Assembly: GCA_900095095.1 (NCBI GenBank)
Contig: FMBT01000292.1
Location: 620,001 to 684,000 of the forward strand
Source: Fragilariopsis cylindrus CCMP1102
Lineage: Eukaryota > Bacillariophyta > Bacillariophyceae > Bacillariales > Bacillariaceae
Length of the DNA: 64,000 bases
Direction: 5' to 3'
Shown here: piece by piece, positions 3,027 through 28,717 of the stretch
How positions within the stretch are numbered: the first letter of the stretch is position 1
How the letters are laid out: every line of letters starts with the position of its first letter
The notes under the pieces: generated by a model
What the model was told of the DNA's origin: nothing
Databases searched by the model: none
The model's input: the letters and a program-made list of their open reading frames with translations, nothing else
Translations under genes and position numbers: made by a program

Positions 3027-5525
3027 ATGTATGATAAACGAACCATTGTAGCTCTTTCTGTTTTTGCACAATGTTTACTTCTGTCAACGGATGTCGCCGC
3101 GTTCTTTATCGGCCATCCAGCCGAACAGGCGAGAAGAAATCATATTTCTTCTTCTGGTACATCATCTTCTGAGCTATTTTCATTGAAACCTCTAGTGGAT
3201 GAAATTATACAGTCAGCAACATCCTCAACAGAAAAGAGAAAAACCATATTTGTTGGTGGCAAAGGCGGTGTGGGTAAAACAACTGTTTCCTCATCTCTAG
3301 CGGTTGAATTGGCAACTCAAGATTTAAAGGTTCTCATTGTTTCTACCGATCCTGCTCATTCACTAGGAGATGCTCTTGATGTTGATTTACGAAGAGGACG
3401 TGGAGATCCTATCGTCATGACGGATCCATTAACACGTGGTAATTTATATGCCAGTGAAATCAACGCCGAAGAAGCTTTGAATGATTTTCGAGAAAGTCTC
3501 GCAAGTTTCGACGTTGATCGGTTGGCACAATCAATGGGGATACCTATTGATTTATTGGATGGATTAGGATTACGAGAATTTAGTGGTCTGTTGAACAACC
3601 CACCACCGGGTTTAGATGAGTTAGTCGCTCTTGGTAATGTAATGGACGACAATAAAGTTAATGACTATGATGTTATAATTGTTGATACGGCACCCACTGG
3701 TCATACACTCAGACTTTTGGCTCTACCTCAATTTTTGGATGGATTATTAGGTAAACTTATAAAACTGCGAATGAAGTTGTCTGGTGTTGCTAGTACGCTT
3801 CAAGCCTTTTTAGGAGATAGTGCTGCTAAAGAACGCGCACAAACAATGGATAATGCCATGGATAGATTAGACGAATTTCGAATAAAGATTAAGAATATGG
3901 AAGTTGCATTACGTGATGAATCCAGAACGGATTTTGTAGTTGTAACGATCCCGACCAAATTAGCTGTTGCAGAATCGAAACGATTAGTATCGGAACTTAC
4001 CACCCAGGGGATTTCAGTCAGTAATGTTGTTGTGAATCAATGTGTGACAAGCATCGGTGAAAATACCGAGAGTGAGGGCATCATGAACTACTATCAACGT
4101 CGACGAGATGGTCAAAATCAATGGATCGAAAAACTAAAAGAAGCGGCGACTGATGTTAGCAGTAGTGAAGAATATAAAACGAATGGCTCTCCTTCTCCTA
4201 TTACCGTTACCGAGCTACCTTTTTTCGATGTTGAATTAGTTGGAATCCCGGCACTTGGCTATGTTGGAAATCAGCAGATAGTTGGTAACGAAAACTTTCA
4301 GCATCTTATGATGAATAATAACGAAGTTATTGGTGAACCAAAAGTTATAATATGTGGTGGGAAAGGGGGCGTTGGGAAGAGTAAGTTTAGTTTTCTATTG
4401 TTTTGTTGCGATTCTGGTGATATTCGTATGTAAGCAGTGATTTGACGATTGCCATTTATCTGTACCTTATCTTTTTTTCTCTTTATCTTTTCTTTTTGTA
4501 TCTGTTCTCGTCAACGTACGACTGTATATGTAGCTACCACAAGTTCTTCTCTGGCGATAGGCATGGCAGCAGAAGGTCTTAAGGTGGCACTGATTAGTAC
4601 AGATCCTGCACACAGTTTAGGTGATGCACTTGACATGGATTTGAGTGGTGGTTCCTTGATAGAATGTCCGTTGATCGGAGTACCTGGTGCGACAGGGGAA
4701 GGATCGCTTTCGGTGATGGAAATCGACCCTTCTTCTGCCATGAGCCAATTCAAAGGTATCGTAGACAATCTCATGGGCGACAGCGGAGATAGCTCAAAGG
4801 CAGGAGGATCAGATCTCCGTTCTACTCTTCAAGATCTTGAGGGCATCTTCGATACGCTTCCAGCTGGTACAGACGAGGTTGTAGCTTTAGCGAAAGTTGT
4901 GAACTTGGTCAAGAAGGGAAACTTTAATCGCATTGTGCTTGATACGGCACCCACTGGGCACACACTACGTATGCTGGGTACTCCAGGATTCTTAGCAGAA
5001 CTTATTGATCGCGTACTTGAAATCTCTCAAAAAGTGAACTCGAACGCCATGGTGAAAATGTTTATCGCGAGTGCAGCGGGTGGACAAGATGGAGAAGAAA
5101 TGGAATCGACCGCTACAGCTGCCAAATCGCAACTAATCGGCTTCCAACTTCAAATGTACGATTTGGAAGACTTGTTTGCTAATCCTGATCAAACAGAATT
5201 TCTGATTGTTACAGTACCGACTGAACTGGCTGTTCGCGAGAGTGTGCGTCTTTTGAATGATCTAACCTTTGAATCTCCCGATATGCCTATCAAGGTTCGA
5301 AATATAGTAGTAAATCAAGTGTTGAAGGATGATGGAAGCGATGTCACAACTTTTTTGTCTCGAGTAAGCGACGGTCAAACCTCGTCGATCAAGAACCTTG
5401 AGCAAGCAATGGGAGCTGTACAGAACCCTCCCGCTATAACAAAAGTTCAATACCTTGATACTGAACCACGAGGTGTCTTTGGTTTGAAAGTTCTTGGGGA
5501 TGCACTTATGATAGAAGGGGACTAG
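3027..5525 (+). CDS. Plastid-targeted tandem GET3/ArsA-type ATPase
   Basis: Two exons: 3027-4380 and 4534-5525, with a 153-bp GT-AG intron, giving about 781 residues. The protein is two complete GET3/ArsA ATPase domains in one chain. Domain 1 has the deviant Walker A GGKGGVGKTT at residues 77-86, then STDPAHSLGDALD and the switch II motif DTAPTGHTLR. Domain 2 repeats all three. The second Walker A is built across the splice: exon 1 ends after GGKGGVGK and exon 2 supplies the threonines, which fixes the junction. GET3 proteins shield tail-anchored membrane proteins; bacterial ArsA is an arsenite-pump ATPase. The N-terminus has a hydrophobic leader ending VAAFF, matching the ASAFAP-type rule for diatom plastid import, so I infer a stromal GET3B/C-like role. 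I see no CxxC zinc motif as in cytosolic GET3, and the arsenite-binding cysteines are not evident. Function in tail-anchored protein insertion is inferred, not shown. Confidence 0.9.
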
Positions 5526-12099: not shown

Positions 12100-12903
12100 T
12101 GTTAAATTATACATAGTACTCGATGTAGGAGTCATATGTTGTACATAAGCCCCGCGGAGTAGAAATACAAGCGCGATCAGATTAGTGAGGAGAAATGCAC
12201 GTGTATGCATTATTGAGATAAAAGAGAACCGAAAGTTAGCTAAAAGCCAACATCGTACTGTTGGAGTTGAAGTGACCTTGTCGAAGCCGTTGTCGAAGCA
12301 ATTGGAACCGAGCGCAAATAAGAGAAGTGCTTAGGTATATTTATACAAATCGGAACACGATTAGGAAGAGTGTCCGAATACATAGAACACGATTATGAAG
12401 AGTGTTATACATATGGAAGTCGAACAGATGTCGATGTCCACCTTTGAACCGCTAATGCGATATATATGCATTGAGGCGAAGTGAGTTAGGAACAGAAAGT
12501 TGTATGCAGGGTTACTGGAAACCGCAATACTAAAATACGAAGAAAAGAGCAGAATTACCTCGATTACGAGAAATGAACAATTACTGTCTTTTATTGTTGA
12601 GAAATTGTAATAACCATAGACTAAATAAACAAGTGTGTTAATAACAACTTTTGCGTTTGAACATCATCGTTAGTATCGTGCCACGTTACTATAGATATAT
12701 CTACAGAAAGTTACGCCATTCTTCTACGGAAGTTTTGCTGACAAGAAGGGGTTAGATATCCTGGTAGAACAACCGTGAGTAGTCTTTCAATATAAGGGTC
12801 AAGAGTATCAACCCTTCCAGCTTTAATAGAATCTTACAAGACCGAAGAGTAAGACTATTATAATCCTGTTTCACCAATCATCGATTGTCTGTGAAACGTA
12901 CAA
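12100..12903 (+). repeat. 5' LTR of copia element
   Basis: 804 bp beginning TGTTAAATT and ending GTACAA, directly repeated at 27914. Only two substitutions separate the copies (T/C near 12140 and near 12735). A TATA-like TATATTTATA lies near 12336. Two near-identical 21-base units (GAACACGATTAGGAAGAGTGT and its variant) lie near 12352 and 12387 and may be U3 control repeats. The last roughly 295 bases match the LTR of the nested element. The exact 3' end is uncertain by one or two bases because the flanking target copy overlaps. Confidence 0.92.
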
Positions 12904-13094
12904 GATTAACAGTCGCACGGTTTATCCTATAAACGTGCTGATCAACTTTCTTTTTAGTTCATCTGAACGACAAAAGGACCGGAGATCCAATTATATTTAA
13001 TTGTAATTATTGAATTAACGATCTCGAAAGAAGTCTAAATTACAATAACCTCAAGTCTTAACAAATAAGAACTAGAGAAGCCATTCAACTGTGA

Positions 13095-15659
13095 ATGAGC
13101 CAGCAAGAAGAACAAGAGGATACTAACGAAACACTACCTACTGAAGGAAGTGATAACGATAGTAGATCCACTTATTCCGAAGCAACAAGTGGAAACCAAG
13201 CGCCCGAAGCGTTAGGTGAAGGAACTCGTAGTCCCCCTTTTTGGGCAGACGCTAACCATCGGACTGAACTAACCTCTCTAGGTTATAACGTTCACACACC
13301 GAACCCGCGCAGAACTACTCGTTCAAGAGCTCCGACTATTAGATATACACCATCTGGTGATACTAATCAAGAGGAAGCCGATATAGAAAATAATCTTTTA
13401 AATATCCAGGTAGAAGTAAACACAGCTAGAGAAGAAGACGAAAGCACAGCAAGTGCTTATAGCGGCTTACGCCCCGGCGATCCACTCTACGTCTCTCCGC
13501 CTAGACTACCTCTACCAGATAGTTCAAGTACAGATACATCTAGTGTTCCGGAACGTCCCAGTCCACCTGAACCTATTGAAGAAGTCATTGATACGTCTTT
13601 TACGCTCGGAACATTTCCAACAGTACACGATCCTTACGTAAAAGGTTACGAAATTACTGCCAGAAATCCAGTTCCTATCAACGTACCTCTACCTTCTCTT
13701 CCAGAGACTCCACCTTTACCTTCTCTTCCAGAGTTACCGTTAACAGAACGCCTTGATACATTGCTAACCGAGATCTGCAATTTCAGAGTCCGTAACTTAA
13801 CAACTCGACGTGCATTTGCTACTAACATTACGCCTAGTAATACTAGCTCACCCAAGATGGCGACCACTCCTTTCGATGCGCAACTCGAAGTCCTCTTGGT
13901 GAATATGTTGAAATGTACGACGGCAACAAATCCGATATACCTTGTGTTAGATCAGAACCACATCCACACATTTGAACAATTTCGTTCTATTGAAATTGAT
14001 GATTTGCCAACGTTTAAATACGAAAAGCCAACCACTGCAGGCACCGAAGAAACTCTCCATATAACACCACTCAAGGAAGTACAAAACTGTGTACACTTTT
14101 GTTGTTATCTAGAGACCGCTGCTGCCGTTGCTCTTGCTGGTGGAGTCATCGATTGTGACGATCCGTCTACATGGAATTATGCGGATATGTTAAACTGGAA
14201 ACGTGCAATAACTGGTAAAGCTACATATCTTCGAACGTTAGTTATACCGGTAACGACTACAACAGGTGCTCCTGGCTCACCAACAATGATAGTTTCAGGC
14301 CCTATCACTTTAAAAGATGATGAAGCCGCACTTATCAGTTGGAATCGAAAGCCTCGAGATCCTGTAAAATACCCGACCATCAACAACGATGCTTTCTATC
14401 AAGATTGGAAACTAAATTTTAAGAGACAAATTATCCAAGATACATTGGAAAGAGTATTGGATCCTAATTTCAATCCCGATCTTCGATCATCAACATGCTC
14501 AGTACGTAGTGGACCCGATGCAGAACTAGCAAGACTTCAAGTTAATTACTTCGCTCAAATCTTGTGTGTAGTTCTTAAGAACCCCGAAGGTCTAGGTCTT
14601 CTTATGGTCCGTCCAGACGATCCGTTATATGTATGGAGAAATCACGAAGATCATCAGAATGACTCAGATGCAGCTCAGATAGCTACAACCACACTGATGA
14701 AGAAATTAATTGCATTGAAATTCAGCGATTTCAACACAAGACATGAATTTCTTACTTCATTTCAAGATACCTCCAGACGATACGATCAACTAGCTACTAA
14801 CGTCATGGATGATTCGGTAAAGATAACATTATTGCAAGCAGCAGTCATGGCCGATTCCGCGTTAATTAACTCCTGGCAATCATGTCAAGATAGTAAACGA
14901 GGAAGCGCTTTAGCTGGATCATCTAGACCTGTTACGTATTATGAGTACATCACGTTTCTTATCAAATCAGCCAAGAATCATGATCTATATACGCCATACA
15001 AGAAACCATCCCGTCAAGCTCATCAAGCTACATCAGAATCATTTTACAATGAAGAAATGAATGTAGACTATGGCGACACTGACGATGGCATTGACGAGTT
15101 CTTAGCTCATATGTCCGTATCCAACGAACCTATGACTGAACACGCTGAAAGTACAATGCAAGCCTATGCAGCATTCCAGAAGAACCGTCGTCCTCCTCGT
15201 GAGAGAGACCCTGACACTGAAATACCGAAACCAATCTTCGAAAAGTGTCCAAGAGATTTACGGATTGCATGGAGTAAGGCACCCAATGATATTAAGAAAC
15301 AGATTCTTAAAATCAAAAACCATCCCACTAAGCAAGGTGCTAAGAAAAATAGTGAGTTAGGTGTCTACATTAGCGATTTTGAAGGATATGACTCCGACGC
15401 ATCCGGCCAATCAGAGCATACCTACGTATACGACGCTGATGATGCTGACGATACATCTGTCATAGAAGCAACTGATTTGACGGCAAATGCAGCAAGACGA
15501 AGACAGCCCAATCAAGGTATACTCAAGAAGAAGGAATTACCAAGGAAGACTGAGCTGCCTTTAGCCGATCCACGTCGATTCATGGCCAACAAAACCACAC
15601 CAGTAATAGGTAAAGATGGTAAAGTTGTTGGTCTGATAAGTTTCACAAACAATCGATGA
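13095..15659 (+). pseudogene. Copia gag-pol, 5' part (gag), interrupted
   Basis: The first 846 codons (13095-15633) are the gag portion of a gag-pol polyprotein. The last eight codons and the stop come from the inserted element. The start is the first ATG after the 5' LTR. The N-terminal 270 residues are Pro/Ser/Thr and acid-rich; residues about 255-650 look like a structural capsid region. I see no CCHC zinc knuckle, which is not unusual for diatom copia elements. The phase at 15633 matches the phase at 22677 beyond the insert, so before insertion gag and pol formed a single frame of about 2,540 codons. Translation now stops 27 bases inside the insert, so this copy could still give Gag protein but not a Gag-Pol fusion. 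Confidence 0.85.
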
Positions 15660-16226
15660 TTGTTGAAACGGGTTCAGTATCAAATAGGATTTGATATTCA
15701 GACAATCTTACTCTTCGGTCTTGTAAGATTCTGTTATGACGGTAAGAAAAGATACTCTCGATTCTTATAGACTGGTTGCGGTGTTCTACCAGGATACTCT
15801 CCCTTTTAGAATGCTGAAAGTCCTTCCGAACAATGTTCACTCTGTAAATGTAGATATTTCTATTATCTTTCCAGACAACGATATGTTCAAACGCAAAAGT
15901 TGTTATTAACACACTTGTTTAATTAGTCTATGGTTATTACAAATCATAAGATAACTCTTCTCTTGTTTGAGGTCTCTTGCTGTACTGTAGGTACATCTGC
16001 GCTTTGGGCAGTTCTTTACAGTGTTATTCGGTTCATAGGAAAATGACCCAAATGACTCATTATTCCATTCCTTAAGTAAGGGATCATGGTTCGCACAGAT
16101 GATCCAAATGACTCATGACTGGTTCGATTCACTAGTGCTTCCAAACCTGCTTTCAAACGTGCGCGCATTTGACCAACTTGATTCAATTGGCTAGCACGGT
16201 TCACTTGGGCTTTGTGGATTTTAACA
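15634..16226 (-). repeat. LTR of nested element, left (inverted)
   Basis: 593 bp. Read on the minus strand it begins TGTTAAAATCC at 16226 and ends TTATCA at 15634. Its last roughly 300 bases (R/U5) are clearly homologous to the host copia LTR, sharing for instance GTAATAACCATAGACTAA and ACAACTTTTGCGTTTGAACA. Its U3 is different. Confidence 0.9.
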
Positions 16227-19200
16227 CTCCCCATTGATTGGCTCAACAATCGTATTGTAACAATCAAAAGAATACACAAACACAATTGTACTGGTATCAT
16301 TGAGATAACGTGATCATATATCAATACCATTCCCAGGTTACAATCCAATTGATCATTCTTCTCCCCATTTTGAATAGTTCTAATCAAAGTGGTCGTCTCA
16401 TCTCCAATAGAGGTACGCGTCGTCTCATCTTCAATGCTAATCAAAGTAGTCGTCTTATCATACTTCCTGTTGATATCGTTGACATTTGTATAGATATCGA
16501 TCTTGCCTTCATTGTATCGTACTGATGCATCAGTTGCAATCATATCAAAGCTGTCCTTGGAATCAATTGCTATAATATTGTGGCAAAACTGGATCATGTA
16601 TAGGGCTTCATTGGAGTTACACGTCGTTTGCTCCCCATTTTCCTTTATCGTACTATTACAATAATCATTATTATTAGATATAATGTTGTTGTTATTGTAG
16701 TTACTATTCTTTATCCATGGCTCTTGAAACATTCCTTCTTCAGCATTATAAACTTCATCTCTATATTGCCCTTCGGAACGTAATGCCCTTGATTGGTACT
16801 CCCCAATTTTCTTCATTGTACCATTACAATAATCACCATTATCAAATCTAATGTTGTTGTAGCTAGTATTCTCTACCAATAACTGATTCGTACTTCTTGT
16901 TCTTGTTACATCATTACCAGAATAATCATATTGAATATTACCATGATTCTTTGTTACGACTTGATAGGGAATTGCATCAGTAGCAACGTCTTCAACAACT
17001 TCCATCTCCCCATTCTTTGTGGAATCGTTGACAGAATCATTCTTGTCTTCCCTTGAAGTAATCGGTTCCTTGATCGTATCCATATCGTTGATTGTATCCG
17101 TATTCGAATAAGTCGAATCCTTGATCGTATCCGTATCGAATGAATTAGTAAGATTTTCGGTCCTATTCATCGTCATCGTCGTTGATTCACTTGTATTCAT
17201 CGTCATCGTCGTTGATTCACTTGTACGATCTGTACCAGGATCTGTACCGGGTTCTGTACCGGGTTCTGTACCAGGATCTGTACCAGGATCTGTACCAGGA
17301 TCCGTTGCTGACGTAAGCTCAATTCTATACGAATATTTATTCCGGGCTGCATTAGTAGTATCAGTAGTACTTGTTGTAGCAGGAGCTTGATACTTGATAG
17401 AATTATCTTTATACTTCGATTGACTTGTATATTTGCTTGTATATTTCTCCCCATTAATTGAAGTAGAAAAATAACCATCATCCTTGATGGGATCAAATGA
17501 TTGAATCACAGTAGAATCAATAATATCATTATTATTATTATTATACCAATGATTACCATTATTCTTGATTAAATCAAATGGATGATTATCATACCAACGA
17601 TTATGATTACCATTATTCTTGATAAAATCAAATGGACTAGTATCATCGTTGTAACCATTCGTATCTCCGATTATTGTTGTATCATACCATACGCTCTTGT
17701 CTTGATATAGAACTACTAGTTGCATAATTGCAATATTATCATCATCGTTGTGTTCTTGGACTTGATATACTGATCGAAATACTAATTTCTTCTCTCCATT
17801 ATTATCATAATTATTATTATCATATTGATGGTTATCGTGATAGAAATAAATAATTCCACTAAAATTATCATTATCATTATTATCACACCAACGATTATTA
17901 GTATCGTTCTTGTTTGTATCGGCCTTCATCATCATCGTTGTCGTTGATTCACTTGTATGATCTGTAGCAGGATCAGTACCAGGCTCTGTACCAGGTTCTG
18001 TACCAGGTTCTGTACCAGGATCTGTACCAGGCTCTGTACCAAGATCTGTACTAGGATCTGTAGCCGGGGCTTTAGCAGAAGCTTTAGCAGGATCTGTAGC
18101 AGGAGCTGGACGGTCGTCGTATGAGTTCTTTAAGGAATCTTCCATTGTTATTATTTGACTCTTGCCATACTCATCTTTATACTTCGATTGACATGTATAT
18201 TTCTCCCCATTAATTGAAGTAGAAAATTTGGTATTGTCATCATCGTTGTTGTTATAGATCAAATTTAATGGCGATATCATCTCACATTTTACTTGATAGA
18301 GAACTACTACTAGTTGCATAGTGGTAATAGTTGTAGTATCAAGGTCGTTGTCATATAACGAATAATAATGAAAACGTATCATCTTGTATTTGACTTGATA
18401 TTTCTTGGTACATTTCGATTGATTTGTTGATTTCTTCCTATTGGTACTACTGAGATCTTCCAATCGAAATAACAATATCAACTCCCCATCAATTGTAGTA
18501 GTAGGCTGGTTCCTCTTGTACTTGATTTGAAGTAGAACTACTAGTACGTTCATATCTAAGGTATCATTGCCACCACTATCGTCATTGTTTGTATTCGTAT
18601 CATCATATAGAATAATGGTATTTTCATCAGCTAAATAATCGAAATACAGATTGAAATCATCATAGCAATAATATTCTTTGTCGTGCTTCCAATCTTTAGT
18701 CGCGGAAGATGTCATATCTAAACTTGATATATCATCGGTCGAATTATCGGTACTACTGGAATCTTCCGTTGTTGGCGTAATCTTCATGTTATAGGAATAG
18801 TTATTTTGGGCTAGTTGCATAATATATTCGTGGACGTTTTGGTGGAGTACTACCTGTTGCATAGTGGCAATAGTATTATCGTTGTTGTTGTCCTTGCTCG
18901 TATCGTTACCATCAATTAGATCTTCGGTTGTATTTGTTAAAGCGTTTTTACTTAAAACAAAATGATACTCCCCATTTAAGATCTTATCTCTATCTAAACT
19001 TGATATAATAGCAATAGTGTGATGATAAGTATCTTGATATAGAACTTCTAGTTGCACTTGAACGCGATACGTCGATCGAAATAGCAGTATCTCCCCATTG
19101 GTTGATGTATGACGATCAATAATAACATTGATAATATGGCCGAATAGATCATCGTGAACGTCTTGATATCGTTCTATATCATCGTCGTTATGAACAGCAT

Positions 19201-20077
19201 TGATTACTTGATTTCGATACATCGGTCGAAGTAGTAGTACTTGTATCGTCAGATATTCTTCATTGTATTCCCCATTATTATTATTATTATTATTATTATA
19301 CCGACGACTATCATGATATAAATAATACTTTTCTTTGTATTGTTGCATAATACAATTACGTATGATATCTTTCATCTCTTTCGCTAACATATAAAAATTA
19401 CTATTATCCTTGATCAAATCAAATGGACTAGTATCATCGTTGTAACCATTCGTATGTCTGATCATTGTCGTATCATGCCATACGCTCTTGTTCTGATAAC
19501 AATAGAGACCTACTTGTTGCATAATGGCAATAGTATTTCCAATTATTGTCGTATCATCTTTGCGAACACATGGCCTCATCTTGTACTTGTCTTGATCGAG
19601 TATTATTAGTAGCATAATAATAGCAATAGTATCATCTTCTTCGTGGACGTTGGCACTGTTATCATCGTCATCATTGTCATCGTAAACTTGAACTCGATTT
19701 ATCAATCGAAATAATGATATCAATATCGATATAAACTCCCCATTGGTTGTAGTAGTAGAGTAACCGTATCGATCATCGTTATTATTATCACCAATAAATG
19801 ATGGTGTTGGCTCTGGTAGCGGTGGTGGATGTGGAGGTGTATTCTCTACCGAACTAAATTCACCATTAACAATAGTGATTCGAACAGTAGCAGCAACCAT
19901 CGTGCGCTTCTTGTTCTCGTCTTCTGGAAAATCCAATTGGATAATCATTGTAGACGCGGCGTCCGTGGCTTCGGCTCCTTCTGAAATAGAACTTTCTTCT
20001 TCTATTCTGATGTCCTTGTGTAGATTTACTCTATCTAGTAGCGGGTTTCTTTTATGAAAGTACGTCAATCTACCCAA
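16016..20077 (-). CDS. 1,353-aa repetitive protein of nested element
   Basis: An uninterrupted frame covering the loop and much of the left arm, with no recognisable gag, protease, integrase or polymerase motif. The N-terminus (MGRLTYFHKRNPLLDRVNLH) is unique; the rest is built from diverged repeats rich in Asn, Asp, Tyr, Ser and Thr. Each repeat tends to begin with Asn-Gly-Glu, encoded by the polypurine-like AATGGGGAG. Recurring phrases include FRxxYQVQ, TIAIMQLVVLYQ, DDTSPFDLIK and the minisatellite DPGTDPGTEPGT. The frame runs through the true polypurine tract into the U3 of the LTR, so the last roughly 70 codons are LTR sequence. It may be a real protein, or a stop-poor by-product of repeat expansion; codon-level selection would decide. 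Confidence 0.45.
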   Translation of the reverse strand: MGRLTYFHKRNPLLDRVNLHKDIRIEEESSISEGAEATDAASTMIIQLDFPEDENKKRTMVAATVRITIVNGEFSSVENTPPHPPPLPEPTPSFIGDNNNDDRYGYSTTTTNGEFISILISLFRLINRVQVYDDNDDDDNSANVHEEDDTIAIIMLLIILDQDKYKMRPCVRKDDTTIIGNTIAIMQQVGLYCYQNKSVWHDTTMIRHTNGYNDDTSPFDLIKDNSNFYMLAKEMKDIIRNCIMQQYKEKYYLYHDSRRYNNNNNNNNGEYNEEYLTIQVLLLRPMYRNQVINAVHNDDDIERYQDVHDDLFGHIINVIIDRHTSTNGEILLFRSTYRVQVQLEVLYQDTYHHTIAIISSLDRDKILNGEYHFVLSKNALTNTTEDLIDGNDTSKDNNNDNTIATMQQVVLHQNVHEYIMQLAQNNYSYNMKITPTTEDSSSTDNSTDDISSLDMTSSATKDWKHDKEYYCYDDFNLYFDYLADENTIILYDDTNTNNDDSGGNDTLDMNVLVVLLQIKYKRNQPTTTIDGELILLFRLEDLSSTNRKKSTNQSKCTKKYQVKYKMIRFHYYSLYDNDLDTTTITTMQLVVVLYQVKCEMISPLNLIYNNNDDDNTKFSTSINGEKYTCQSKYKDEYGKSQIITMEDSLKNSYDDRPAPATDPAKASAKAPATDPSTDLGTEPGTDPGTEPGTEPGTEPGTDPATDHTSESTTTMMMKADTNKNDTNNRWCDNNDNDNFSGIIYFYHDNHQYDNNNYDNNGEKKLVFRSVYQVQEHNDDDNIAIMQLVVLYQDKSVWYDTTIIGDTNGYNDDTSPFDFIKNNGNHNRWYDNHPFDLIKNNGNHWYNNNNNDIIDSTVIQSFDPIKDDGYFSTSINGEKYTSKYTSQSKYKDNSIKYQAPATTSTTDTTNAARNKYSYRIELTSATDPGTDPGTDPGTEPGTEPGTDPGTDRTSESTTMTMNTSESTTMTMNRTENLTNSFDTDTIKDSTYSNTDTINDMDTIKEPITSREDKNDSVNDSTKNGEMEVVEDVATDAIPYQVVTKNHGNIQYDYSGNDVTRTRSTNQLLVENTSYNNIRFDNGDYCNGTMKKIGEYQSRALRSEGQYRDEVYNAEEGMFQEPWIKNSNYNNNNIISNNNDYCNSTIKENGEQTTCNSNEALYMIQFCHNIIAIDSKDSFDMIATDASVRYNEGKIDIYTNVNDINRKYDKTTTLISIEDETTRTSIGDETTTLIRTIQNGEKNDQLDCNLGMVLIYDHVISMIPVQLCLCILLIVTIRLLSQSMGSVKIHKAQVNRASQLNQVGQMRARLKAGLEALVNRTSHESFGSSVRTMIPYLRNGIMSHLGHFPMNRITL
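16227..16235 (-). other. Polypurine tract of left nested copy
   Basis: AATGGGGAG on the minus strand, directly next to the LTR start, as expected for the plus-strand primer of reverse transcription. Confidence 0.8.
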
Positions 20078-20409
20078 TCAAAATCGATTTCGGTTCTTGA
20101 TGTACAGATCGATTCCCTGAGTAGCAAATAGCTACAGTCAAATCAAATCTTCTATTGTCTTTCTTGAAACTCAAGGAAATAAGACGGTGGACTTCTAAGA
20201 ATCCAGATGGATTATCATAGGCTGATGCGGCGGCTGTAGCTTTGGCTTGTTCTGAAATACAACTCTCGTCTTGTATTCTTATACGTTCCTCTGTATCGTA
20301 TAAGTAGCGTTATAGCACGTCTATATATCAAAATCAAAGTCGATTTATTATGATTATTATTATTATTATTATTATTATTATCAATATTAATATTAATTAA
20401 AATAAATGA
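17884..20409 (-). other. Single-copy loop of nested palindrome
   Basis: 2,526 bp present once between the two arms. It carries the first two thirds of the minus-strand repetitive frame, and upstream of its start a 330-base stretch that includes a diverged duplicate (20222-20340) of the sequence around 19960-20090. An (ATT)n run at 20351-20390 and AATAAT-type sequence occur exactly where the right arm begins, and could have allowed strand fold-back. Confidence 0.8.
20351..20390. repeat. (ATT)n at palindrome junction
   Basis: A tract of ATT triplets just before the right arm starts at 20410. The matching inner edge of the left arm (about 17865-17883) is also made of ATTATCATT-type repeats. Confidence 0.85.
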
Positions 20410-22289
20410 ATAATAATGATAATGATAATTTTAGCGGAATTATTTATTTCTATCACGATAACCATCAATATGATAATAATAATTATGATAATAATGGAGA
20501 GAAGAAATTAGTATTTCGATCAGTATATCAAGTCCAAGAACACAACGATGATGATAATATTGCAATTATGCAACTAGTAGTTCTATATCAAGACAAGAGC
20601 GTATGGTATGATACAACAATAATCGGAGATACGAATGGTTACAACGATGATACTAGTCCATTTGATTTTATCAAGAATAATGGTAATCATAATCGTTGGT
20701 ATGATAATCATCCATTTGATTTAATCAAGAATAATGGTAATCATTGGTATAATAATAATAATAATGATATTATTGATTCTACTGTGATTCAATCATTTGA
20801 TCCCATCAAGGATGATGGTTATTTTTCTACTTCAATTAATGGGGAGAAATATACAAGCAAATATACAAGTCAATCGAAGTATAAAGATAATTCTATCAAG
20901 TATCAAGCTCCTGCTACAACAAGTACTACTGATACTACTAATGCAGCCCGGAATAAATATTCGTATAGAATTGAGCTTACGTCAGCAACGGATCCTGGTA
21001 CAGATCCTGGTACAGATCCTGGTACAGAACCCGGTACAGAACCCGGTACAGATCCTGGTACAGATCCTGGTACAGATCGTACAAGTGAATCAACGACGAT
21101 GACGATGAATACAAGTGAATCAACGACGATGACGATGAATAGGACCGAAAATCTTACTAATTCATTCGATACGGATACGATCAAGGATTCGACTTATTCG
21201 AATACGGATACAATCAACGATATGGATACGATCAAGGAACCGATTACTTCAAGGGAAGACAAGAATGATTCTGTCAACGATTCCACAAAGAATGGGGAGA
21301 TGGAAGTTGTTGAAGACGTTGCTACTGATGCAATTCCCTATCAAGTCGTAACAAAGAATCATGGTAATATTCAATATGATTATTCTGGTAATGATGTAAC
21401 AAGAACAAGAAGTACAAATCAGTTATTGGTAGAGAATACTAGCTACAACAACATTAGATTTGATAATGGTGATTATTGTAATGGTACAATGAAGAAAATT
21501 GGGGAGTACCAATCAAGGGCATTACGTTCCGAAGGGCAATATAGAGATGAAGTTTATAATGCTGAAGAAGGAATGTTTCAAGAGCCATGGATAAAGAATA
21601 GTAACTACAATAACAACAACATTATATCTAATAATAATGATTATTGTAATAGTACGATAAAGGAAAATGGGGAGCAAACGACGTGTAACTCCAATGAAGC
21701 CCTATACATGATCCAGTTTTGCCACAATATTATAGCAATTGATTCCAAGGACAGCTTTGATATGATTGCAACTGATGCATCAGTACGATACAATGAAGGC
21801 AAGATCGATATCTATACAAATGTCAACGATATCAACAGGAAGTATGATAAGACGACTACTTTGATTAGCATTGAAGATGAGACGACGCGTACCTCTATTG
21901 GAGATGAGACGACCACTTTGATTAGAACTATTCAAAATGGGGAGAAGAATGATCAATTGGATTGTAACCTGGGAATGGTATTGATATATGATCACGTTAT
22001 CTCAATGATACCAGTACAATTGTGTTTGTGTATTCTTTTGATTGTTACAATACGATTGTTGAACCAATCAATGGGGAGTGTTAAAATCCACAAAGCCCAA
22101 GTGAACCGTGCTAGCCAATTGAATCAAGTTGGTCAAATGCGCGCACGTTTGAAAGCAGGTTTGGAAGCACTAGTGAATCGAACCAGTCATGAGTCATTTG
22201 GATCATCTGTGCGAACCATGATCCCTTACTTAAGGAATGGAATAATGAGTCATTTGGGTCATTTTCCTATGAACCGAATAACACTGTAA
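20406..22289 (+). pseudogene. Truncated inverted copy of repetitive frame
   Basis: A 627-codon open frame in the right arm. From its second or third codon on it repeats the C-terminal part of the 1,353-residue protein of the minus strand, with one Ser/Asn change near the end and an additional four-residue DPGT unit. Its ATG is created by the junction sequence, so it is best read as a partial inverted copy and not as a separate gene. Confidence 0.75.
22070..22078 (+). other. Polypurine tract of right nested copy
   Basis: AATGGGGAG immediately before the TGTTAAAATCC that starts the right LTR. Confidence 0.8.
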
Positions 22290-22671
22290 AGAACTGCCCA
22301 AAGCGCAGATGTACCTACAGTACAGCAAGAGACCTCAAACAAGAGAAGAGTTATCTTATGATTTGTAATAACCATAGACTAATTAAACAAGTGTGTTAAT
22401 AACAACTTTTGCGTTTGAACATATCGTTGTCTGGAAAGATAATAGAAATATCTACATTTACAGAGTGAACATTGTTCGGAAGGACTTTCAGCATTCTAAA
22501 AGGGAGAGTATCCTGGTAGAACACCGCAACCAGTCTATAAGAATCGAGAGTATCTTTTCTTACCGTCATAACAGAATCTTACAAGACCGAAGAGTAAGAT
22601 TGTCTGAATATCAAATCCTATTTGATACTGAACCCGTTTCAACAATCATCGATTGTTTGTGAAACTTATCA
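22079..22671 (+). repeat. LTR of nested element, right
   Basis: 593 bp, TGTTAAAATCC to TTATCA, the mirror image of 15634-16226. The R/U5 half matches the host LTR, including the stem-loop CTTAC-AAGACCGAAGA-GTAAG near 22577 that is also present in the host LTR near 12836. Confidence 0.9.
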
Positions 22672-22676
22672 TGGTC

Positions 22677-25600
22677 ATATCGCATATACGGCAGCTATGG
22701 CTAAAATCAATCATCGTTTTGATCAAGTCGATTGTCATCTACCAAATACTTCCAAAGACAACTACGTCGTCTCCGTTAATGCAACGAAATTCTTTAATGA
22801 ACCACTCGCATTAATGGATGGCGGAGCTAATGGTGGAATTGGAGGCAGAGATATGAGACTCATGTCTTACAATGCTGACGGACGACGTGTCAATATAGGT
22901 ATTGCAGGTGATCATCAAATGACTGGCAAGAGACTTGGAACATTTTGTTCTGTAATTGTTACAAACAGAGGCAAGATTCTAGCCATATTTCATCAATATG
23001 CTCATGTACCTGAACAAGAAAAATCGATTCACTCGAAATGTCAGTTCCAAGCGCATAATAATCTCGTTGGAGATACAGCGACAGCCTATGGCGGGCCACA
23101 ACGTATTCAAACTGCAGACGGATATCAGTTACCATTATCTATACGCTCTGGATTACCGTACATTCGCCAAACATATCCTACCAATGATGAGATTAAAGAG
23201 CTTACACATGTACAGTTTACTTCACCTGCCGAATGGAATCCTACTCTGAATGACGATAGCCGTACACCTGAAGAAATGCTCAAGCAATTTCCTCCTATGC
23301 CACGGTCCGCTATCAACGAATTCTACGATCAAGAAGGTAATATTAATTACGACTATCTTTCTAAACAAGAACATAGACCAATACGTGCAACAGTTCAAAC
23401 CGTTGAAATTGAACATGACGATGATGACAGTGTTGGGTCTATGCCTAGTTTACAAGATCGAGCTCGAGAAGAAGATTCCTCAAGTGATGATGACAGTGTC
23501 TGTGATGAACAATCCAAACAACCAACTAAGATTGTATGGAATGTTCCAGTCGATGACTCCAATGGGGAGAAAACCGGATGTCCTCGACTTAGAAAGAGTA
23601 AACTCAAGCGTCGTGTACGAATCAGAGAAAAACGACGCAAAGCTGCAGCTTCTAAGCAAGAACTGATTGATAAGAACACATCTGCTGTTACAGCTAATGA
23701 GTTACCAATCCCAATTATTGATAACATGGGCAATAATAAAGAATCCCCTACATTAGTAGACGGTATAGAGTTCTTTTCAACGGATCCTCATCCGCTTCAA
23801 CCTAATATCATCGACGACGTTATTGAAGAAATGAAAATGGACGATCTACTGTTCTACGATTCAATAGATTCACCCAATGACTCCACAGTATTCGTAGATA
23901 CAAAATCAGACACCTCGTATCTTGATGACTTATCTACCTTCAGACCGACTGAACACGAATACTGGGAAGACTTTTTATTGGATGAATCTACTCAGCGTCT
24001 GATCTATCAAGGAAGACTCGATTATTATGAACAATATGACATTAATGCTACCGACATTGCTAATGTAATGAATCCTCTTACACCAAGATATTCTGTACCC
24101 ACGGTCATCGATTATGAATCCAAAAGGAAGTACTTTGCACATCTACCTGCTTCTGTTGTCAAAGCTACATTCAAGCATACAACTCAGAATATGAAACTGC
24201 CCCCAGCCTCATATCTGCACAAGATGTTCAAATCACCTAATCCTTCTGCAAATCTCAAACGCCGTGATGAAGACGATGCTACCGACATGATCTATTCAGA
24301 TACTCCTGCATGCAACGGTGGTGAGAAATGTGCACATATCTTCGTGGGACGAAAATCGAAACTCACCGATGCATACAAAGTAAAACATCAGAATGCTGAA
24401 GACTTTCTACTTTGCTTCCAAGATCGTGTCCGTCAAAGAGGATGTCCCACTGGACTAGTAGCAGATAATGCTCCTATGTATCGAGGATGGAAAAACGCAG
24501 TGTACCTTCGAGACATTTGTATCTCATTATGGCAATGCGAATCCAAATATCAGCACCAAAACTATGCTGAAAATCGATGGCAAACCGTCAAACGGTACAC
24601 GAACCGAGTAATGGACCGCAGCGGTTGCCCTCCCTACGTTTGGTTTCTAGCATTATCCTATGTTATATTCTGTCTCAACAATTGTGTTGATCCAACCATC
24701 GGAGAGGGAAACAAGAGCCCACTACAAATCGCAACATTTCAAATGACTGATATTAGCCCTATGCTATACTTCTATTTTTGGGAACCTGTTTATTATCTCG
24801 TTGATGAATCAGAACAGCATTTCCCAAGTAAGTCCAAAGAAATGAGAGGTCGATGGGTAGGAATCTCCGAACATATCGGTAACAAGATGACCTACAAAAT
24901 CATTTCCGATACAACTGGAAACGAAATTTGTCGCTCGGCCATACGTACTGCACGAGACAATACGATGAAGAAACTACGCGAAGATCCTGTCACGGTAGAC
25001 AAAGATCTATTCAATGTTGAAACTATCCTTTCTCCGGCAGAAGATATTGCTAACAATAAGTTAAAAGAAGTAACCTCGGGAAATACTTTTAACAATTTTG
25101 ATGCATCAGCAATATCCAAGGATATCGAAATTCAACTCCAGGCAGAATTAGATGCAAGATTTAACGACTCGAATGAACAGCAGACTGGTCATTTTAAAAC
25201 GGCGTCGCCAAAACGTGCACCTCCTACTGGACCACAACGTCATGTAAAACAGAAGCGTTTAAGCGACTTAAATCCTCTGGATAAAACTAAGGATAAAGGT
25301 TTACGACGTAGTTCACGACATAAACCCCTTCAAAACTTGAACGTTAAAGGAGTTACCACACTATTGACCCAAGTCAATAATACTGATATCAACCATCCCA
25401 CCAACCCACAGCCGTCTACCGCAACTCGTCAACAAGTCCTCAAGCAACGTGACACATCTATCAAGGAACAGCTAGATTCATTTGTCTATCTTCGAGAAAA
25501 TGGGGAGAATGAATATCTTTTGGGAAAAGAATTTGAGTTTCCTCTTAAAGACGAAAATGGCAACGCGATACTCGGAGACGACGGCAAACCGTTGGTAGCA

Positions 25601-27769
25601 ATAGCGCCCCCACCAAGTGATCTAGTAGGAAGAGTTTTCCTAACCAAACCCGACGAGAGAGGTGAAGTTAATAGAGCCCGAGTTGTAGAACTTATCAAAG
25701 ACTTTGAAGGCAAAGTTGAAAAGGATATGAATCTAATCAAGTTCAAGCTAAACTATGATCACAGTTCCCAAGAAGACATCATGTCGTGCAACGAAATTCT
25801 GGACTACATCGAAAGAGAACAGAACAATGAAGACGGACATCATTGGAAATTTCGTACTATCTTAGGACACGTACATACTCCTGTGGGACACAAGGATAGA
25901 ATGGGGAGTGACTACAACGTCAGAACAGCTTGGGAAACGGGAGCAATTTCGGTTGAACCATTGGACTTCCTTGCTAAGGACATTCCTGTTGATCTTGCTA
26001 TCTATGCCAAGAAATTTGACCTACTCGAATTGGAAGGATGGAAACGCTTTAAAAGAATTGCTAACCGAGATAAGCATATTCGACGACTTGTGAAACAAGC
26101 CAAGCTACGATCCTTCCATGTTACTCCTAAGTACAAGTATGGATTCTCTATACCGCGTAACTACAAGGAAGCCCTTGAGTTTGACGAAAGGAACGGTAAT
26201 CATAAATGGCAAGAAGCAAATGTATTGGAACATGCACAATTAACGGATTATGCAGTATTCAAGAACAAGGGAGAATTCCATGATGCAAAGATACCAGAAG
26301 GTTATCGCAAGATCAAAGTTCATACTATCTTTGATGTGAAACACGATGGCAGGCATAAAGCTCGAGTTGTAGCTAATGGTAACCTAACGGATACGCCACT
26401 CGAATCTGTTTACTCAGGTGTTGTTTCATTACGCGGATTACGTACATGCATATTCTTAGGAGAACTTAACGGCATGACCCCATGGGCTACTGATATTGGA
26501 AATGCTTATCTTGAAGCAAAGACCACCGAAAAGGTATGCATCAAAGCAGGGCCAGAATTTGGGGAGCTACAAGGAAACCTTCTTATCATCGATAAGGCTC
26601 TTTACGGATTAAGACTTAGCGGAAAAGCATTCAACATTTTGCTATCTGATTGTCTACGCGACCTAGGATTCTACCCATCCAAAGCAGAATCAAGTATTTT
26701 CATGAGAAAATGTCCTACAAGAGACGTGTACGAATATGTGGCCACATATGTTGATGACCTATGCATTGTTATGGAGAATCCTAGGGAGTTCCTAAACCAG
26801 CTGTCGTCAGCACCGTACAACTTCAAACTGAAAGGTTCAGGAGAAGTTAACTTCCACTTAGGTTGTGGATTTGAGAGAGACTCTGATGGAGTATTATGTA
26901 TGGACCCAAGCCGGTACATAGACAAGATGGAAGATGCCTACAAGCAATATTTCAAGGAATTGCCTAACCAGAAGCACAGATCACCGCTAGTGAAGGGAGA
27001 CCATCCAGAACTTGATGTAACCGAGTTTCTTGACCAAGACGGTATTGAAATATATCAATCATTAATAGGAGCTATGCAATGGGCAATCTCTATTGGACGA
27101 TGGGATATACAATCCGCAGTAATGAGCTTATCAAGCTTTAGAGCGCAACCACGAAAGGGACATCTGGAAAGAATCAAGCGTATCTACGGATTCTTATGCA
27201 AGTTCAGGCATTTCAAACTACGGTTTCGAGTTGATGAACCAGACTATTCCGGTATTCCACCAATGCCACCCTACGATTGGAGCCATTCTGTATATGGAAA
27301 CCCAACTGAAGACATCCCTAAAGATGCACCAACTCCACTGGGAAAACGAATCGTTTTGACCCATTACTTCGATGCAAATCTAATGCATGACGTACTATCA
27401 GGAAAAGCAGTTACAGGTGTAGTTCACTTCTACAACAAGACTCCCGTTGATTGGTATTCCAAGAAACAATCTACCACGGAAACCGCAACGTACGGATCTG
27501 AATTCCTGGCATGTCGAACCTGTTTCGAACAGATCATTGATCACCGACAGTATCTACGATACCTTGGAGTACCAGTAGGAGATGAAGACTACGCATGGGG
27601 AGACAATGACGCGATGATCAATAGTGCAACCATACCGGACGCAAAGTTACATAAACGACATAACATTCTGTCATTTCACTTTGTTAGAAGCTTAATTGCA
27701 AGTGGTTTCATTAATCTGCAACATATTAAATCGGAAAGTAATATTGCAGATATACTTACGAAACATTGA
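22677..27769 (+). pseudogene. Copia gag-pol, 3' part (pol), cut from its start
   Basis: About 1,697 codons of copia pol in the same frame as gag. Aspartic protease: LMDGGANGG (near 22813), with DGGA replacing the usual DSGA. Integrase: SDTPA then HIFVGRKS (near 24296-24355), VADNAP (near 24460) and the Glu in NYAENRWQ (near 24560) give the DDE triad. Reverse transcriptase: ATDIGNAYLEA (near 26490) and the catalytic YVDDL (near 26750). RNase H: HYFDANL, TYGSEFLACR and WGDNDAM, ending NIADILTKH. I see no internal stop, so the coding sequence is intact except that the nested insertion has separated it from the gag start. An in-frame ATG exists inside the inserted LTR at 22622, so translation from a nested-LTR transcript is conceivable. 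Confidence 0.92.
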
Positions 27770-27913: not shown

Positions 27914-28717
27914 TGTTAAATTATACATAGTACTCGATGTAGGAGTCATATGTCGTACATAAGCCCCGCGGAGTAGAAATACAAGCGCGATCAGATTAGT
28001 GAGGAGAAATGCACGTGTATGCATTATTGAGATAAAAGAGAACCGAAAGTTAGCTAAAAGCCAACATCGTACTGTTGGAGTTGAAGTGACCTTGTCGAAG
28101 CCGTTGTCGAAGCAATTGGAACCGAGCGCAAATAAGAGAAGTGCTTAGGTATATTTATACAAATCGGAACACGATTAGGAAGAGTGTCCGAATACATAGA
28201 ACACGATTATGAAGAGTGTTATACATATGGAAGTCGAACAGATGTCGATGTCCACCTTTGAACCGCTAATGCGATATATATGCATTGAGGCGAAGTGAGT
28301 TAGGAACAGAAAGTTGTATGCAGGGTTACTGGAAACCGCAATACTAAAATACGAAGAAAAGAGCAGAATTACCTCGATTACGAGAAATGAACAATTACTG
28401 TCTTTTATTGTTGAGAAATTGTAATAACCATAGACTAAATAAACAAGTGTGTTAATAACAACTTTTGCGTTTGAACATCATCGTTAGTATCGTGCCACGT
28501 TACTATAGATATATCTACAGAAAGTTACGCCATTCTTCTACGGAAGTTTCGCTGACAAGAAGGGGTTAGATATCCTGGTAGAACAACCGTGAGTAGTCTT
28601 TCAATATAAGGGTCAAGAGTATCAACCCTTCCAGCTTTAATAGAATCTTACAAGACCGAAGAGTAAGACTATTATAATCCTGTTTCACCAATCATCGATT
28701 GTCTGTGAAACGTACAA
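27914..28717 (+). repeat. 3' LTR of copia element
   Basis: 804 bp, near-identical to 12100-12903. It follows the polypurine tract and precedes the target duplication GTAGA. Confidence 0.92.

Follow-up and report, generated by a model that had tools for sequence, protein, structure and literature searches.

The locus described here raises the question of how an LTR retrotransposon came to be integrated with the same U5 end at both of its termini. The insertion (15634-22671, 7,038 bp) is an inverted repeat, known here from the assembled sequence alone, and it interrupts a copia element (copia-2). The window is the whole stretch of 64,000 nt that was analyzed; its GC content is 39%, and two neighbouring ORFs at 3027-5525 both match an ArsA-type ATPase. 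Coordinates are positions in the window, and a C followed by a number labels a locus elsewhere in the assembly. Genome-wide searches were run on the assembly of 67.9 Mb in 818 contigs. The features of the insertion and of its target are collected in Table 1.

Table 1. Positions of the features of the palindromic insertion and of the copia element that carries it
Feature	Position	Strand	Basis or remark
copia-2 5' LTR	12100..12903	+	TSD GTAGA before LTR; PBS GATTAACAGTCGCA from 12904
copia-2 ORF before insertion	13095..15633	+	ORF, phase arithmetic
TSD TGGTC, left	15629..15633	.	read directly
Left arm, 2,250 bp	15634..17883	-	inverted-repeat comparison
Left R-U5, copia-1 type, 309 bp	15634..15942	-	terminus CTTATCA on minus strand
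Left U3 of element X, 284 bp	15943..16226	-	comparison with X copies and copia-1
X ORF from ATG, 1,294 aa	16019..19900	-	translation of window copy
Left polypurine tract AATGGGGAG	16227..16235	-	sequence match
Internal AATGGGGAG copies in X ORF	16361, 16631, 17006, 17447, 18203, 18968, 19091, 19736	-	
Loop, 2,526 bp	17884..20409	-	N-terminal part of X ORF and 5' leader
Turn of palindrome at 20409/20410	20398..20435	.	copied strand starts with ATAATAATGATAATGATAAT, complement of 17864-17883
Right arm, 2,262 bp	20410..22671	+	C-terminal part of X ORF and second PPT-LTR
Right polypurine tract AATGGGGAG	22070..22078	+	sequence match
Right LTR, 593 bp	22079..22671	+	ends CTTATCA (U5 end)
TSD TGGTC, right	22672..22676	.	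read directly
copia-2 ORF after insertion	22677..27769	+	RVT_2, E 1.2e-21
Internal AATGGGGAG copies in copia target	23561, 25499, 25900	+	
copia-2 3' LTR	27914..28717	+	then TSD GTAGA

The insertion is an inverted repeat with a U5 end on both sides

An initial sequence-only reading of this DNA had described a 7,038-bp inverted repeat with near-identical arms, both integrated termini of which were the same U5 end. Both descriptions held. The arms enclose a loop of 2,526 bp and differ from each other by three substitutions and one 12-bp indel, and the same terminus was read at both outer ends (TGATAAG.../...CTTATCA). All three substitutions were transitions, two of them at CpG, and the indel was one 12-bp tandem unit. 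The arms were therefore probably identical at birth, and their differences are as expected for changes that followed the insertion. Two of the three substitutions could be polarised and both were derived on the right arm; because two polarised sites are too few, we rejected this polarity as a guide to the direction of priming.

The LTR of the inserted element, measured from the polypurine tract (PPT) AATGGGGAG, was 593 bp at each end. The two PPT-U3 junctions of the insertion both faced outward (contig positions 636220, minus strand, and 642069, plus strand). No PBS was found in the insertion, even when three mismatches were allowed, and no LTR sequence was found in its interior (16236-22069). 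The palindrome thus consists of a PPT-LTR end on both sides, with no detectable PBS or 5' LTR. Two outward PPT-U3 junctions together with the lack of a PBS and of an inner LTR are what minus strands contain as long as the second transfer has not taken place.

The target is a young copia element with an empty site in its relatives

The target, copia-2, is a young copia element, and its LTRs were 99.75% identical over 805 bp. Of the features of an autonomous copia element, an RVT_2 reverse transcriptase and LTRs were present, and a Pfam search up to E 1 recognised no integrase domain in its ORFs. The 5-bp duplication TGGTC that had been noted on both sides of the insertion was confirmed: when the two 40-bp flanks were joined with one TGGTC, their alignment with the copia copies at C793 and C439, neither of which is interrupted, was free of gaps and contained TGGTC once. 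The empty site shows TGGTC to be target sequence, and we accordingly rejected its assignment to the element. Further, the two parts of the flanking ORF (13095-15633 and 22677-27769) summed in phase (1 + 2 nt). Many matches in the genome ran 8 bases past the LTR (copia leader GATTAACAGTC... versus GACCAACAACT in the window), which is a short chance extension.

The precise 5-bp TSD and the gap-free empty site point to a single integrase event that used two U5 ends. The insertion is real and aberrant, and it was probably a single event.

The inserted element belongs to a small family with its own U3

The terminal 309 bp of the insertion are shared with an abundant 8.9-kb copia element, copia-1, the LTR of which is about 816 bp. 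We considered whether the insertion was a rearranged copy of this element and rejected this assignment, because the 284-bp U3 and the interior differ. The insertion belongs instead to a small separate family of copia type, X, which is seemingly non-autonomous and in which the distance from PBS to PPT is 3.7-3.9 kb. The X ORF of the window copy was compared with Pfam (E 0.001) and with PDB (E 0.1), and neither gave a match; thus, X looks non-autonomous, with no reverse transcriptase or integrase of its own recognised in the ORF that was scanned.

Copies with direct LTRs, for which the sequence-only reading had advised a search, were found in this family. The X copy at C279 carries LTRs of 549 bp in direct orientation that are 99.8% identical and are flanked by a 5-bp TSD (GTTTG). 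In that at C401, also in direct orientation, the LTRs were identical where compared (264 of 264 bp). These two copies therefore have the direct LTRs of the Ty1/copia type, whereas the LTRs of the window copy are inverted. Further, PBS and PPT lie in one orientation, as in that type, in the X copies at C279, C307, C388, C401 and C226 (the LTRs were compared in C279 and C401), whereas the window copy carries a PPT on each side and no recognisable PBS. At C226, two X-type PPT-U3 junctions (4923 and 5879) were found 956 bp apart in the same orientation, perhaps as the result of a partial tandem duplication.

The PBS, located at 12904-12917 in copia-2, is the reverse complement of the anticodon region of tRNA-Asn(GTT), and this complementarity suggests a half-tRNA primer derived from tRNA-Asn. 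The 14-mer has 59 exact sites in the genome. Three of 13 inspected sites were tRNA-Asn genes; these 13 were picked by eye among sites with no U5-pattern match beside them, and some other such sites were left out. At the PPT, CAATGGGGAGTGTTAAA has 49 exact sites in the genome.

The PPT sequence was present nine times on the sense strand of 15634-20409, once as the PPT itself and eight times within the ORF, compared with an expected mean of 0.01 and a maximum of 1 in 1,000 order-1 simulations. Ten of the 13 GGG codons of the X ORF fall in [ND]GE motifs. The copia target and C793, which represents another copia family, have three internal PPT copies each, with matching flanks, and those of the target lie in two reading phases. 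The internal copies may be extra sites at which plus-strand synthesis starts.

The LTR of the insertion is a mosaic

The outer 309 bp of the insertion were 99.0-99.7% identical over 307-315 bp to the copia-1 LTRs that were compared, and 306 of the 309 bases were identical in one copia-1 LTR at C793. The U3 (15943-16226) matched the X copies at C279 (220 of 233 aligned bases) and C299 (235 of 247) more closely than it matched copia-1 (151 of 196). At C279 and C299, the X-type U3 is followed by an R-U5 of the copia-2 type, with 98% and 100% identity, respectively. Across these copies, X keeps its own U3, whereas its R-U5 comes from two different autonomous copia families; the sequence-only reading had noticed neither this chimeric make-up nor the apparent lack of autonomy.

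In three X copies and in both types of copia, one and the same base, TTGTAATAACC, marks the start of the shared sequence; the U3/R-U5 boundary is at 15943/15942 in the window, and at C279:21813, C279:17503 and C299:3991. Over the initial 60 bases of R-U5, a single difference, at base 21, separates the window copy from copia-2; further on, the two diverge. At base 21, the window copy agrees with copia-1, and C279 and C299 agree with copia-2. Since R is shared, it is uncertain where exactly the switch took place. Exchange of R-U5 with different autonomous families from a common start base is the signature expected of an intermolecular first strand transfer, which, passing through the shared R, would leave such a pattern. 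Both arms of the palindrome carry the same U3(X)-R-U5(copia-1) LTR, which is absent from the other copies with this U3 (C279 and C299), and this identity fits descent from one parent RNA or one molecule.

The palindrome turns in an AT-rich tract of the leader

From the PPT to the turn, which sits in an AT-rich tract, the left copy measures 4,173 nt, compared with 3,657-3,885 nt from the PBS to the first PPT in the five other X-type copies in which both sites were located. Thus, the left copy covers at least the internal sequence of a minus strand before the second transfer. Relative to position 20150 of the window, the turn is 259 nt upstream; in C279, which shares this U3, the distance from the matching point upstream to the PBS is 222 nt. 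In C307, C388 and C401, the PBS lies about 930 nt upstream of the point that matches 20014, and the turn 395 nt upstream in the window. The leader from anchor to PBS is therefore about 360 nt in C279 and about 930 nt in C307, C388 and C401, and leaders of the latter length imply that synthesis could have stopped some 500 nt short of the PBS.

In a search with simple repeats skipped, the end of the leader (20347-20409, about 60 bases) matched only its own inverse near the turn. A stable local hairpin at this end was considered and rejected: no special folding was found for 20300-20420, which folded no better than shuffled sequences (z -0.17).

Origin of the palindrome

We propose, with a probability of about 0.66, that the insertion is an aberrant X cDNA in which a minus strand was primed on a minus strand, and that the resulting DNA with two U5 ends was integrated. 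The X cDNA would have been made inside the particle of an autonomous copia helper, with minus-strand synthesis beginning from a half tRNA-Asn primer and R-U5 being supplied by copia-1 RNA, in the same or an earlier cycle. After the first strand transfer, the minus strand would have been copied through the U3 and ORF of X into the 5' leader and would have stopped at or before the PBS, so that no 5' LTR existed. Its AT-rich 3' end would then have paired with ATTATCATTATCATTATTAT (17864-17883) on a minus strand, either its own or that of a co-packaged sibling, and would have been extended to the U5 end of the templating strand. Finally, integrase would have joined the two U5 ends to the target across a 5-bp stagger. 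Points that weigh against this proposal are the longer leaders of C307, C388 and C401, the second PPT of C226 and the lack of special folding at the end of the leader.

The sequence-only reading had proposed that a minus strand folded back near its 3' end and primed itself. Its core, self-primed synthesis from a minus strand, is the best-supported origin and is strengthened by the missing PBS and 5' LTR, whereas a simple fold-back does not suffice. When a single strand folds back on itself, the product is a hairpin that is open at one end only; therefore, either an extra step or mutual priming is needed. As to the order of priming, and one molecule or two, we infer the following alternatives. 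Two sibling minus strands that primed each other, in the manner of primer dimers, would give a linear double-stranded palindrome with a U5 on each side. In the version with one folded strand, a further step of synthesis would have to open the hairpin. We tentatively suggest, at somewhat less than even odds, that two sibling minus strands carrying the U5 of the helper primed mutually and that the palindrome was a full substrate for the integrase of the helper in vivo. If this is true, the U3 terminus is not required for concerted insertion in the copia group concerned, and plus-strand synthesis is possible without a PPT or a second strand transfer.

It is unlikely that two X cDNAs were instead joined by their U5 ends, one to each strand of a single target site, and that host end joining then connected the shortened free ends of the two head to head. 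In vitro, integrases are able to pair donor ends that are identical, and this course of events would also account for the two U5 ends, the single TSD and the asymmetry of the loop, with its AT-rich join. End joining likewise uses short AT-rich matches. However, one cDNA must then have lost its whole 5' LTR and PBS, of which the insertion retains no trace, and the other must have lost its 5' LTR, its PBS and about 2.5 kb more. Further, both donors would need the same chimeric LTR that the other copies with this U3 lack.

An artefact of assembly or amplification, in which a fold-back chimera was placed in the contig, is less probable still. Fold-back chimeras likewise use short matches and give inverted repeats. 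The sequence-only reading had argued against this explanation from the TSD, the TG...CA ends and the resumption of the host pol, and its argument was upheld: the palindrome does not run into an inverted left flank and ends exactly at the end of the LTR, after which TGGTC follows and the reading frame of the target resumes in phase, with an empty site that matches its relatives. The 3 bases and 12 bp by which the arms differ, and the length of the contig (1.02 Mb), also argue against an artefact.

We consider it very improbable that the locus began as a normal X insertion with direct LTRs and underwent chromosomal rearrangement afterwards. Break repair at AT-rich repeats is one way in which inverted duplications form, but the right end of the insertion is a U5 end that stands exactly at the TSD, and such a rearrangement would have needed to exchange the U3 terminus of the 5' LTR at precisely that point.

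The palindrome is the only one of its kind among the sites searched

Two U5-end patterns, with two or one mismatches allowed, gave 85 and 44 sites (128 distinct), counts that leave out older or other families and copies cut by contig ends. Direct adjacent pairs within 20 kb numbered 20 with the first pattern and 12 with the second. The pooled list contained 32 direct and five opposite adjacent pairs, and only the pair of the window faced outward; pairs were counted by adjacency alone, and some of the direct ones had unusual spacing (3-4 kb or 14-19 kb). Similarly, the 51 PPT-U3 sites included three adjacent direct pairs within 20 kb, and the only opposite pair was that of the window. With 32 direct pairs against one outward pair, the palindrome is not a normal product. 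Recurrence, which the sequence-only reading had named as the key question, was thus not borne out: no other copy with two U5 ends was present among the 128 U5-end sites.

The other opposite pairs were considered in turn. At C58:132606-132645, two U5-like ends lie tail to tail; this locus was rejected as a second case, since the inverted repeat measures 42 bp and no longer one was found in the 2.1 kb inspected. C294 and C306 were rejected as further cases because their U5 sites, plus and then minus, face inward and have different types of end. The spacings of these sites, 15,849 bp (C294:7431-23299) and 15,859 bp (C306:167883-183761), perhaps reflect a segmental duplication. The remaining opposite pair is formed by the 5' LTR of the target and the neighbouring left end of the palindrome. 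At C448 (6823 and 10490), two copia LTR ends, separated by 3,667 bp, lie within a direct duplication; this duplication is exact, measures at least 2.3 kb, includes flanking repeats and is possibly a duplication of the assembly.

The single outward pair and the normal X copies with direct LTRs suggest an accident rather than a family with palindromic architecture. It is scarcely credible that palindromes with two U5 ends form a family of their own, fixed and inherited, as no supporting point was found with patterns that exclude distant families, neither the U5 nor the PPT sites gave a second such pair (the latter within 20 kb), and the relatives at C279 and C401 are arranged normally.

Comparison with known systems

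Non-autonomous LTR elements of the LARD, TRIM and BARE2 kind borrow the machinery of helpers. X resembles them in that no reverse transcriptase or integrase domain was found in it and in that it shares PBS, PPT and LTR signals with autonomous copia elements; it differs from them in its large ORF with no known domain, its mosaic LTR and the repeated PPT-like motifs in its ORF. DIRS-type elements have inverted terminal repeats, as does the palindrome, and they use a tyrosine recombinase and make no TSD. In contrast, the palindrome has a 5-bp TSD, copia-type TG...CA ends and relatives with direct LTRs, and no recombinase domain was found in the X ORF. Retroviruses are known to yield snap-back and inverted cDNAs, and integration of two U5 ends occurs in vitro. 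These represent the same kinds of intermediates; unlike them, the palindrome is natural, integrated, flanked by a TSD and found in the copia group.

Among the papers listed in the literature searched, which included passages of PMC5086612 and PMC1950507 and few subscription journals, we recognised none that describes the integration of an LTR element with U5 at both ends. One of the closest known systems is that of the complex LTR elements of Triticeae (Sabot and Schulman, 2007, PMC1950507), which are ascribed to template switching between R regions. In these elements, identical outer LTRs and a third, internal LTR accompany a pair of internal domains. Co-packaging was invoked for them, and BARE2 and VejuL were named as template-switch products, in that paper. 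Like them, the palindrome is an aberrant product of reverse transcription with multiple parts that entered the genome in one insertion event with a 5-bp TSD. Unlike them, so far as they are described there, it has inverted parts, two U5 ends, and neither an inner LTR nor a PBS; instead of three LTRs and two internal domains, it has two inverted LTRs.

The palindrome is thus a natural record of an accident of reverse transcription, and it bears on the choice of ends by integrase. The locus indicates that DNA carrying U5 at both termini was accepted by a copia integrase and inserted with the normal 5-bp duplication, which suggests that a pair of identical ends can suffice for insertion.
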